From: Phycisphaerae bacterium
Lineage (GTDB): Bacteria; Planctomycetota; Phycisphaerae; Sedimentisphaerales; Sedimentisphaeraceae
Assembly (NCBI GenBank): GCA_027078365.1
Contig: JALWYQ010000044.1
Coordinates: forward strand, 1 to 64,000
Reading direction: 5' to 3'
DNA length: 64,000 nucleotides
Shown: piece by piece, positions 20,416 through 38,645 of the stretch
How positions within the stretch are numbered: position 1 is the first letter of the stretch
How the letters are laid out: every line of letters starts with the position of its first letter
The notes under the pieces: model-generated
Told to the model about the DNA's origin: nothing
What the model saw: the letters and a program-made list of their open reading frames with translations, nothing else
Databases searched by the model: none
Position numbers and translations under genes: made by a program

Positions 20416-20934
20416 ATGACAGCGGCAAATAGTAGTTCAATTGCTATCGTGATGGGTTCAGACAGCGATCTAGCAACAATGCAAAAATGTATTGATATAT
20501 TAAAAACATTTGATATTAGCCCTGAAGTTAGGATAATCTCAGCACATAGAACCCCTGATATTGCTGCAGAGTTTGCAGATAACGCAAAGAGCAATGGTGT
20601 AAAGGTTATTATTGCCGCTGCTGGAATGGCTGCGCATCTTGCAGGGGCAATTGCCGGCAGAACGCCGCTTCCTGTTATTGGTGTTCCAATGCAGGCAAGT
20701 GAGGGGCCTACTGGAATGGATGCACTGCTCAGTACGGTCCAGATGCCTCCGGGAGTTCCTGTTGCAAGCATGGCTATTGGTGTAGCTGGAGCTAAGAACG
20801 CTGCAGTATTTGCCGTTCAGATATTAGCTCTTAGCGATGATGAACTGGCAGCAAAACTCGATAAATTCAGAGAAGACCAAACTGCAGCGGTTATAGCAAA
20901 GGATAAGAAGCTTCAAGAGTCACTAGGTAATTAA
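20416..20934 (+). CDS. purE: N5-carboxyaminoimidazole ribonucleotide mutase PurE
   Basis: Class I PurE, which converts N5-CAIR to CAIR in purine synthesis. The 172 residues show the family motifs MGSDSDLATM (phosphate binding), ISAHRTPD (catalytic His), AAAGMAAHLAGAIAGRT and GVPMQASEGPTGMDALLSTVQMPPGVPVA, abbreviated here. A GAGGG site lies upstream. No purK is adjacent. The gene stands alone, between its own promoter and terminator. Confidence 0.96.
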   Translation: MTAANSSSIAIVMGSDSDLATMQKCIDILKTFDISPEVRIISAHRTPDIAAEFADNAKSNGVKVIIAAAGMAAHLAGAIAGRTPLPVIGVPMQASEGPTGMDALLSTVQMPPGVPVASMAIGVAGAKNAAVFAVQILALSDDELAAKLDKFREDQTAAVIAKDKKLQESLGN

Positions 20935-20953: not shown

Positions 20954-20990
20954 AAAAGCCCACACAAAATGACTTTGTGTGGGCTTTTTT
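20954..20990 (+). terminator. Terminator of purE
   Basis: AAAAGCCCACACAAA (20954-20968) pairs with TTTGTGTGGGCTTTT (20974-20988) around a 5-nt loop, followed by further T. Confidence 0.88.
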
Positions 20991-21043: not shown

Positions 21044-22270
21044 TTATCCAACAGTTAACAGAGAGTTGTAATCTCCGTATGGGTTCATTTCAACATCTTC
21101 ATTGTAAGGGTCTTGTTGCCACTTACCATCAACTACGAGACGGTAGCGATACTTGCCTGGTGCTAGATTCAACTTAATCTGCCAAGCACCATCGTTACTA
21201 ATTTTCTCCATGATAGTGTTTTCTGGTTGCCAGTGATTGAAATCGCCTGCTATCTGAACTTTCCTTGCGTTTGGATATAGGGCTGTAAATGATACGATGT
21301 TGCCCTGTTGCCTCACGCCGTAATAGCGTTCTATCTTTTCTTCTACTTTATCAAGAATTCTCTCGCTGACTTCTTCTTTAGTCTTTTCTTGAGATTGTTG
21401 CTGACGATTTAAAGATATATCCCCGAGAATTCCACGTGCATTATTGCCTATTGCTTCAAGTTGGCGAGATAGCGAGCTTACCATTTCTTTGCGATGTGTG
21501 AGTGTGTCTGTGCTAATTAACTCGTCTGCAAGAGAAAGAAAATCCCTGCTTCCCTTACTTGAAGGTTCGTATTCTGTGATTGGCTGGCCAAGGCTTGCTG
21601 CTTCTTTTAGCTTGGTATTGAAGTTTATTACGGTCTGGAACATCTTGGAGCCAAAATGCTTTCTCAGCTCTGCCAAAACCTCACGACTCATCTTAGTGCG
21701 AACATCGTACATGCTAGCGAGAACCATCACGTTTATTGGTTGCTCGCATTGATTTGAGAGAACTGTCAGAGTTTCAAGTTGCTTACTAAGCCCATGTAGT
21801 GAGAAGTATCCAGTCTCAACAGGAACGATTACATCTTGCGAGCTTTTAATAGCATTGAAGGTGAGTAATCCTACCGATGGAGGACAGTCAATAATGCAAT
21901 AATCGTAGTCGTCTGATACAGTCGCAAGTACGTCTCTTAGGCAGTTTTCTCTGCCAACAACTCCAGCCATCTGTTGTTCAAACGCAGCTAGGTCTATATT
22001 TGATGGTGCAAGTTCAAAGTTATCAGATATTTGCCATAGGATTTCTGATAGGTCTATTTTTTCTTTGCGGCTAGCGCTTAACAGGCTGTCGTAGATTGCA
22101 AGTTCAATTTGCTCCTCAGGTACAGCAAGGCCAACTGCGCTGTGAGATTGTGGGTCCATATCAACGAGTAGAGTGCGCTTGCCTCTTACGGCGAGCGAAC
22201 TTGCGAGATTTATAGATACTGTTGTTTTACCACACCCGCCCTTTTGGTTAATAACAGCGATAGTTCTCAT
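21044..22270 (-). CDS. ParA/MinD-type ATPase fused to a C-terminal CBM48/AMPK-beta-like domain
   Basis: A 408-residue protein with two halves. Start is set at ATG 22270 (MRTIAVINQKGGCGKTT), with AAGGAG 12 bp upstream; the longer frame upstream has no support. Residues 1-240 are a ParA ATPase: deviant Walker A with Lys10 (Cys where most have Val), the DMDPQSH motif, and the IIDCPPSVGLLT Walker B region. A Gln/Glu/Lys-rich linker (about 255-320) leads to residues about 324-408, an early-set glycogen-binding-like domain: VQIAGDFNHWQP, AWQIKLNLAPGKYRYRLVVD, then GKWQQDPYNEDV. No ParB lies nearby. A link between DNA or surface positioning and glycogen or another glucan is inference. Confidence 0.88.
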   Translation of the reverse strand: MRTIAVINQKGGCGKTTVSINLASSLAVRGKRTLLVDMDPQSHSAVGLAVPEEQIELAIYDSLLSASRKEKIDLSEILWQISDNFELAPSNIDLAAFEQQMAGVVGRENCLRDVLATVSDDYDYCIIDCPPSVGLLTFNAIKSSQDVIVPVETGYFSLHGLSKQLETLTVLSNQCEQPINVMVLASMYDVRTKMSREVLAELRKHFGSKMFQTVINFNTKLKEAASLGQPITEYEPSSKGSRDFLSLADELISTDTLTHRKEMVSSLSRQLEAIGNNARGILGDISLNRQQQSQEKTKEEVSERILDKVEEKIERYYGVRQQGNIVSFTALYPNARKVQIAGDFNHWQPENTIMEKISNDGAWQIKLNLAPGKYRYRLVVDGKWQQDPYNEDVEMNPYGDYNSLLTVG

Positions 22271-22383
22271 TTCTAACAAATACTCCTTGATAGCAATATC
22301 ATAATTATGCGGTTTTCTGTACTGAAAAGAGCGTCTTGTCCTGTACCCGCACCAAAATTTCAATTAAAGACCAGTTGAAAATA

Positions 22384-37670: not shown

Positions 37671-38588
37671 CTAGTATTCTTGAGTTATTGGCTTATCTGT
37701 TTCTTGAGTAATCTGATTTTCTACGTCTTGCTTAGTATCTAGAGCTTCCTGTTTTGGTTTGTAGTCTATTCCTTGAGTTTCAATAGGAGACCCTTTTTGC
37801 ACTGCGCCATTTATGAAATATTCGGCTACCTGCATGTAGTCGATTGCGCCGTTACATTTTGGTTCGTATTCAAAGATTGTTTGGCCATAACTTGGCGCTT
37901 CTGCAAGTTTGACGTTTCTGCGTATTTGGACAGGGATTAACTCTGCTCTATTCCACGCGCACTGAGAATCTCTTGAGTTTTGTAAAAATTCTTCAATGTC
38001 GTTTTTTACTTCACAAGACAGAGACGTCCTTGCATCGTACATACACAAGAGTATGCTTGAGACCCTAAGGGCTGGATTGATTCTTTTGTTTACTAGAGTT
38101 GCTGTTTCAAGAAGCTTGCCTAGGCCCTGTAGGGCTAGAAAGTGTGGTTGTAGAGGGATTAATATCTCTTTTACCGCGGCAAGGGAATTTAAGCTAAGCA
38201 ATCCAAGTGAAGGAGGGCAATCTATAATTAGAAAGTCATAATCATCTTTTATCTTTTCAATGGCTTCACGCAGAATAATTTCACGACCGACCACATTGAC
38301 GAGTTCGCTTTCGGCCCCAACAAGGTCGATGCTTGCCCCCATCAATGATATATTTTCACGCACTTCTATCAAGGCATCCTTTGCCTCTACATTTTGAGTC
38401 AATACTTGATAAGCGCCCACCTCTAACTCTTCTGGATTTATTCCAAGATGTATCGTTAAGTGTGCTTGTGGGTCGAGGTCTATAAGTGCTACTTTCTTAC
38501 CTTTTATAGCAAGCGCCGCTGCAGTATTGACAACTGTAGTTGTTTTGCCAACGCCACCTTTTTGATTTAGTATTGCTATAGTTCTCAC
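37671..38588 (-). CDS. ParA/Soj-type ATPase
   Basis: A 305-residue ParA-family ATPase. The GTG at 38588 (giving MRTIAILNQKGG) has AGGAG 9 bp upstream and matches the start of the other ParA protein in the window; a TTG at 38606 is less likely. The deviant Walker A KGGVGKTTT, LIDLDPQAHLT (Walker A') and FLIIDCPPSLGLLS (Walker B) are intact. The last ~50 residues are a Gln/Lys/Glu-rich tail of low complexity. No parB or centromere-like repeat is adjacent. Flanking genes are nusB and a cupin, so it may be an orphan positioning ATPase and not the chromosome-segregation ParA. Confidence 0.9.
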   Translation of the reverse strand: MRTIAILNQKGGVGKTTTVVNTAAALAIKGKKVALIDLDPQAHLTIHLGINPEELEVGAYQVLTQNVEAKDALIEVRENISLMGASIDLVGAESELVNVVGREIILREAIEKIKDDYDFLIIDCPPSLGLLSLNSLAAVKEILIPLQPHFLALQGLGKLLETATLVNKRINPALRVSSILLCMYDARTSLSCEVKNDIEEFLQNSRDSQCAWNRAELIPVQIRRNVKLAEAPSYGQTIFEYEPKCNGAIDYMQVAEYFINGAVQKGSPIETQGIDYKPKQEALDTKQDVENQITQETDKPITQEY

Positions 38589-38645
38589 TTTTTGAGGCTC
38601 CTGCAAAGGTTGTTTCCTCTCTCAAAAGAGTTTCTTGAGAGATTC

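Follow-up and report, generated by a model that had tools for sequence, protein, structure and literature searches.

A ParA-family ATPase joined in one reading frame to a CBM48-type carbohydrate-binding module (CBM) is confirmed here as a class-wide domain architecture in the Phycisphaerae, and we found no earlier description of such a ParA-CBM48 fusion in open-access PMC text. The copy that we describe lies in the window, which is the whole 64,000-nucleotide stretch of a Phycisphaerae contig that was analyzed. We scanned a sample with one genome per species and took the best 80 loci, each of which encodes the fusion in full or, in a few cases, a part that a contig end cuts short; their hosts are mostly MAGs titled Phycisphaerae, Phycisphaerales, Sedimentisphaerales, or Planctomycetota. 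The 80 relatives carry an identical join in one frame, which led us to reject misjoined genes or an assembly error and bears out the original prediction that the frame is continuous across the junction between ATPase and CBM. Protein length ranges from about 400 to more than 540 residues, and the difference lies mainly in the linker, with both ends alignable and conserved, as expected of a true two-domain protein.

An orthologous ATPase was found in about 142 of 198 sampled Phycisphaerae genomes (a hand count, with a best E value of ~1e-76 or lower), and in most of these genomes the match runs through the CBM in one frame. Only an ordinary ParA was found chiefly in families f11 (18 of 20 genomes), f16, f23, and f26, together with three relatives in the window's own family. 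In a sample of 196 genomes of the phylum there was no strong full-length match in any other class, and one clear copy outside the class was recovered in genome G258 (locus L118), with ATPase, CBM, and all key residues. This planctomycetote fusion spans L118:4607-5800, and every glucan-site residue is present in it. Outside the Planctomycetota, fusions were sought through the best 80 loci and a plasmid search; at least 6 plasmid records cover at least 80% of the query, and the four plasmid matches listed are from Photobacterium, where ~29% identity over query residues 1 to 350 falls on a ParA gene and a neighboring hypothetical gene.

Gene structure

The fusion and its immediate surroundings in the window are as follows.

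21044 to 22270, minus strand: ParA-CBM48 fusion coding sequence (P0001), 408 amino acids, a single open frame
21506 to 22270, minus strand: ParA/Soj-type ATPase domain, residues 1 to 255, from Pfam and structure-database matches
21323 to 21505, minus strand: linker, residues 256 to 316, from conservation, length variation, and AlphaFold
21047 to 21322, minus strand: AMPK1_CBM/CBM48 domain, residues 317 to 408, from Pfam, PDB matches, AlphaFold, and residue conservation
22283 to 22288, minus strand: Shine-Dalgarno-like AAGGAG, ~12 bases upstream of the ATG at 22270
20954 to 20990: inverted repeat and T run resembling an intrinsic terminator, between the fusion gene and purE
20416 to 20934, plus strand: purE, the convergent downstream neighbor of the fusion and the best conserved neighbor found

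The AAGGAG and the terminator-like element were read directly from the sequence, as was the identity of the neighboring gene, which we take to be purE. The open reading frame of the fusion begins with an ATG at 22270 and ends with a stop codon at 21044-21046 on the minus strand; a forward-strand reading of 21044-22270 was rejected because its translation is full of stops. The AAGGAG at 22288-22283 supports the start at 22270, as does M1, which is invariant in 33 aligned homologues and marks this ATG as the conserved start, and there is no need to invoke a longer frame from the TTG at 22363.

The ATPase domain

Motifs and full-domain matches in sequence and fold assign the N terminus of the fusion to the ParA/Soj branch of the ParA/MinD family of ATPases. 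Pfam AAA_31 matches residues 1 to 178 (E value of 8.3e-51), CbiA also matches (E value of 1.5e-19), and the deviant Walker A motif KGGCGKTT (K10 and K15), the Walker A' aspartate D39, and the Walker B aspartate D128 are in place, in agreement with the complete ParA ATPase originally predicted. All four residues are present in every fusion-clade sequence tabulated, the exception being f22_L117, in which D39 is replaced by asparagine. By sequence, the nearest solved relatives of the N terminus are ParA 8ray (E value of 3e-51) and Soj 1wcv (E value of 1.2e-44), with ~35 to 40% identity over the whole ATPase domain and the same fold. Foldseek matched the ATPase to Soj 9a6n (E value of 8.9e-25), and the top 50 PDB matches of the full AlphaFold model are all ParA-superfamily folds. 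None of the NCBIfam cutoffs was reached by the fusion, whose best models were ParA partition (114.7 bits), RepA (105.8 bits), and BcsQ (91.6 bits), with cutoffs of 180, 348, and 158 bits, respectively (157.85 bits for the BcsQ equivalog TIGR03371). The fusion has the deviant Walker A motif, the Walker B motif, and most DNA-contact positions in common with Soj/ParA, but it lacks a ParB neighbor, carries a C-terminal linker and CBM, and forms a clade of its own.

Two residues, R191 and K220, are presumably the counterparts of the two DNA-binding arginines of Bacillus subtilis Soj. Both positions are basic in most CBM-bearing members, and with them serving as a proxy only, DNA binding by the fusion ATPase is putative. 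The R191 position is occupied by D, E, S, N, T, or G in CBM-bearing f10 members and in some members of f20, f22, f24, and f25, and because this residue has been lost there despite the CBM, nucleoid binding may not be general.

The linker and the carbohydrate-binding domain

AlphaFold was run on the family alignment of 33 members and returned two confident domains with a low-confidence linker between them. Helices were predicted at residues 239 to 285 and 303 to 316, and pLDDT is under 50 at residues 285 to 312. The linker opens with a conserved heptad-like helix (V..SL..QLE.IS..A.ELL) and continues through a Q/E/K-rich stretch of low confidence into the start of a YYGVRQ lead-in to the CBM; the Gln/Glu/Lys linker of the original prediction was recovered at about residues 286 to 312.

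The assignment of the C terminus to CBM48/AMPK1_CBM held up in the profile search, where both curated Pfam cutoffs were exceeded: AMPK1_CBM matches residues 334 to 407 (E value of 1.2e-11; 45.1 bits, cutoff of 26.8) and CBM_48 matches residues 318 to 389 (E value of 1.7e-9; 38.3 bits, cutoff of 22.4). When the C-terminal 117 amino acids were compared to the PDB by sequence, the first match was AMPK beta-2 (E value of 1.8e-6). Residues 321 to 408 were modeled as an all-beta block with pLDDT of 90 to 96, consistent with the early-set beta-sandwich fold of CBM48/AMPK1_CBM. Folded alone, the CBM gave a poor model (pLDDT of 70), and the top PDB matches of this model, AMPK beta-2 and glycogen branching enzymes, are weak (E value of ~4e-3, probability of 1.00, TM score of ~0.5).

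All 77 full-length members have W347, R377, and W384, and 76 of them also have N402, which we take to be the equivalent of AMPK N150; in a few more distant members, position 402 is occupied by D, S, A, or H. W347, R377 (a conservative K-to-R change), and W384 are the equivalents of AMPK-beta W100, K126, and W133, which contact beta-cyclodextrin and whose mutation markedly reduces glycogen binding (PMC2642990). Together with the stand-alone CBMs in alpha-glucan clusters described below, the conserved contact residues make alpha-glucan the likely ligand of the fusion CBM, and so lend support to the glucan ligand proposed at the outset.

Phylogeny and decay of the CBM

In a tree of 60 ATPase domains, drawn with an arbitrary root, a 100/100 branch splits 25 ordinary ParAs from all 35 fusion-clade sequences. 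Members without a CBM (f10, f20, and f24) or with a degenerate one (f24 and f22) group with the CBM-bearing L077 and L078, and since they sit inside the fusion side, the simplest reading is that loss or decay of the tail came later; apart from these few nested lineages, homologues keep the predicted tail consistently. The ATPase lysines and the Walker B aspartate are intact in the CBM-less and degenerate members (with the D39 replacement in f22_L117), and the retention of Walker residues even where the CBM is lost suggests that the ATPase cycle matters. Most CBM-bearing members keep the basic residue at the K220 position, whereas 13 of the 14 members with no CBM or a degenerate one have lost it, a descriptive pattern among related sequences that, as for R191, presumes the Soj equivalence. 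At L103, L104, L105, L113 to L115, L194, and L195, the CBM and mostly also the putative DNA-contact residues are gone and the Walker motifs are kept; CBM-less ATPases must therefore have gained or kept another role.

Alpha-glucan genes and genomic context

Several clusters connect CBMs of this type, or the window genome itself, to alpha-glucan enzymes.

L123:4913-7848, L124:4993-8292, and L125:5058-8166: GT-GH57-CBM clusters of family f2
L159:9470-14064: operon of the window genome encoding a GT4/GT5-like enzyme, a GH57 enzyme, and a glycogen debranching enzyme
L153:9366-11963: alpha-glucan phosphorylase of the window genome, DUF3417/phosphorylase domain

In three genomes of family f2, which belongs to the window's order, the run of GT, GH57, and stand-alone CBM genes has the CBM last, encoding 113 to 118 amino acids that are 50 to 55% identical to the fusion tail. 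These same three genomes also carry the fusion. G003, a member of the window's family without the fusion, encodes a 109-amino-acid CBM protein just upstream of glgP, glgA, and glgB-like genes (L131), more distant from the fusion tail than those of f2, and in G039 (L127) the gene for a 103-amino-acid CBM protein precedes that of a GH13 enzyme with its own CBM48. The window genome (86% complete) yielded no GlgA above the cutoff and no GT3 glycogen synthase, and its GT-GH57-debranching operon and alpha-glucan phosphorylase indicate that the organism probably makes and uses an alpha-glucan.

Across the 198 class genomes, GlgA exceeded the cutoff in 1, GT3 synthase was found in 81 at an E value of 1e-3 or better (with weak partial matches only in the window's order), GlgP and GlgB were scattered, and the GT4/GT5-like synthase query matched in 150. 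By hand count, the GT4/GT5-like synthase is present in 117 of 142 fusion-clade genomes versus 33 of 56 others, a modest enrichment confounded by shared ancestry. A correlation with classical glycogen synthesis was rejected, as none of GlgA, GT3, GlgP, and GlgB tracks the fusion: the fusion-rich order is without a GT3 enzyme, family f11 has GT3 but is mostly without the fusion, and some f19 genomes (e.g., G107) have the fusion with no GT3, GlgA, GT-GH57-type synthase, or GlgP above thresholds. Synthase type is itself split in the Phycisphaerae, with GT3 in many families and, in the window's order, the GT4/GT5-like enzyme encoded beside GH57 and debranching enzyme; GT3 glycogen synthase also turns up in Bacteroides. 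A GlgA-like domain was additionally observed within frames of 911 to 926 amino acids in several genomes of the order (G015:C6:164119-165546, G193:C40:21224-22678, and similar matches).

Within 81 loci we found no conserved operon of the fusion with glucan genes and, among neighbors of at least 80 amino acids, no widely conserved partner gene or McdB-like adaptor. A purE homologue recurs in about 24 of the 81 and a Memo-like gene in about 23; a function drawn from gene neighborhood was rejected, as neither has a clear functional link.

Proposed mechanism and alternative readings

We tentatively favor an ATP-switched tether between alpha-glucan and the nucleoid, to which we give somewhat less than an even chance. 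The fusion would be a ParA-family ATPase with a built-in cargo adaptor: upon ATP-driven dimerization the N-terminal domain would attach to nucleoid DNA irrespective of its sequence, in the manner of Soj/ParA, and the C-terminal CBM48 would hold cytoplasmic alpha-1,4/1,6-glucan, such that glucan particles, possibly with enzymes on them, would be tethered to the nucleoid and spread or shared between daughter cells. Binding to DNA and to glucan, tethering, and positioning of any kind are all predicted activities of the fusion. Counting for the tether are the retained Walker residues, the mostly basic R191 and K220 positions, the conserved glucan-site residues, the link between CBMs and alpha-glucan genes, and the single fusion ATPase clade, set apart from paralogues at 100/100. 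Counting against it are the placement of the cargo module on the ATPase itself with no partner found among 81 loci, the loss of R191, and the lack of synthase tracking or of a conserved glucan operon. In known ParA systems, a separate cargo-bound partner such as ParB triggers release (PMC10241942); a cargo module in cis would need another trigger, perhaps the glucan itself. Positioning of glycogen granules by the fusion is a plausible proposal, the ligand side of which is now better supported. A one-protein inheritance system, in which a ParA with a glucan anchor would keep alpha-glucan bodies spaced over the nucleoid and pass a share to each daughter cell, class-wide and in bacteria without FtsZ, is a bolder claim that we regard as unlikely.

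Ranked close behind the tether, though somewhat unlikely in itself, is a role as glucan sensor, whereby glucan on the CBM would alter ParA ATPase activity or dimerization and report stored carbon to a segregation, replication, or division partner. Glycogen bound to the beta-subunit domain of AMPK inhibits the kinase, which is a precedent for a regulatory CBM (PMC2642990), and the FtsZ-independent biology of the Phycisphaerae, which have no FtsZ and use a fission-like mode of division, also speaks for a sensor (PMC6952346). Such a role would account for members in which the CBM and Walker motifs persist with the R191 position lost, for the absence of a dedicated cargo operon, and for conservation across the class regardless of which type of glycogen synthase is present. 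However, neither a partner nor a genetic link to segregation or division genes was found, and the long, variable, and partly disordered linker favors a tether over tight allostery.

The fusion might also be the chromosome-partition ParA of an orphan ParB, its CBM being an add-on through which segregation is linked to carbon stores, a reading that we consider quite improbable and that turns on two further features.

L171:4692-5606 (window genome contig C1), and L172 to L177 in relatives: orphan ParB, canonical, with an LGRGL-type N terminus
37671 to 38606, minus strand: second, ordinary ParA of 311 amino acids with no CBM, the paralogue used for comparison

ParB was detected in 38 of 40 relatives (36 above the cutoff), and no ParA lies beside it in the seven neighborhoods that we read, each of ~10 kb in a genome of this order; the sole ParB found in the window genome is on a contig other than that of the fusion, with no ParA adjoining. 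The fusion accordingly does not show the parA-parB adjacency of ParABS systems, and the original remark that no ParB is nearby is true yet uninformative: with ParB never adjoining ParA in all seven genomes checked, its absence near the fusion is not diagnostic. These ParBs without a ParA, along with the Soj-like ATPase, fit a partition role, but G002, G003, and G004, of the same family, keep ParB and an ordinary ParA without the fusion, so segregation does not need it there, and a second ParA occurs in the window genome as well as in most relatives. That second ParA adjoins nusB with no ParB beside it and is a candidate partner for the orphan ParB. Least probable of all is that the CBM48-like domain is unrelated to alpha-glucan and instead mediates protein interactions, plays a structural part, or binds a different glycan, since, although early-set domains can serve other roles and some f19 genomes (G107) keep the fusion with no synthase or GlgP query above thresholds, the glucan-contact residues hardly vary even among strongly diverged members and stand-alone homologues cluster with alpha-glucan enzymes in several arrangements.

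Relation to known systems and significance

ParA/MinD ATPases position DNA, carboxysomes, flagella, and chemotaxis clusters, typically via separate partner proteins. McdA is likewise a ParA-family ATPase, with the carboxysome on the nucleoid where a metabolic body is proposed for the fusion, but it is a remote relative (PDB 6non/6noo, E value of ~1.7e-11) and its cargo link is a separate McdB, whereas the cargo module of the fusion is in the same chain (PMC6328274, PMC8262871). BcsQ is a ParA-superfamily ATPase tied to a glucan pathway, cellulose secretion, and matches the fusion by profile (CBP_BcsQ, E value of 2.5e-14) and by Foldseek (E value of ~6e-14); it differs in serving a beta-glucan system and in having no CBM. 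AMPK beta shares the domain family and the key residues and is a regulatory protein equipped with an accessory module for glucan binding, but in the fusion the CBM sits on a ParA ATPase rather than a kinase scaffold, its glucan ligand is predicted, and the equivalent of L146 is Y or F (by eye). Plant PTST (PROTEIN TARGETING TO STARCH) similarly combines a coiled coil with a CBM48 and is reported to bring a partner enzyme to glucan granules (PMC4339375), but it is a plastid system with no ATPase.

If a glycogen-binding ParA positions cargo, the list of ParA cargoes would extend to storage polysaccharide; alternatively, ParA would act as a sensor of carbon state in these bacteria, whose division does not depend on FtsZ. 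Either way, a fusion found throughout the class could tie a stored sugar polymer to the chromosome, or sense that polymer.
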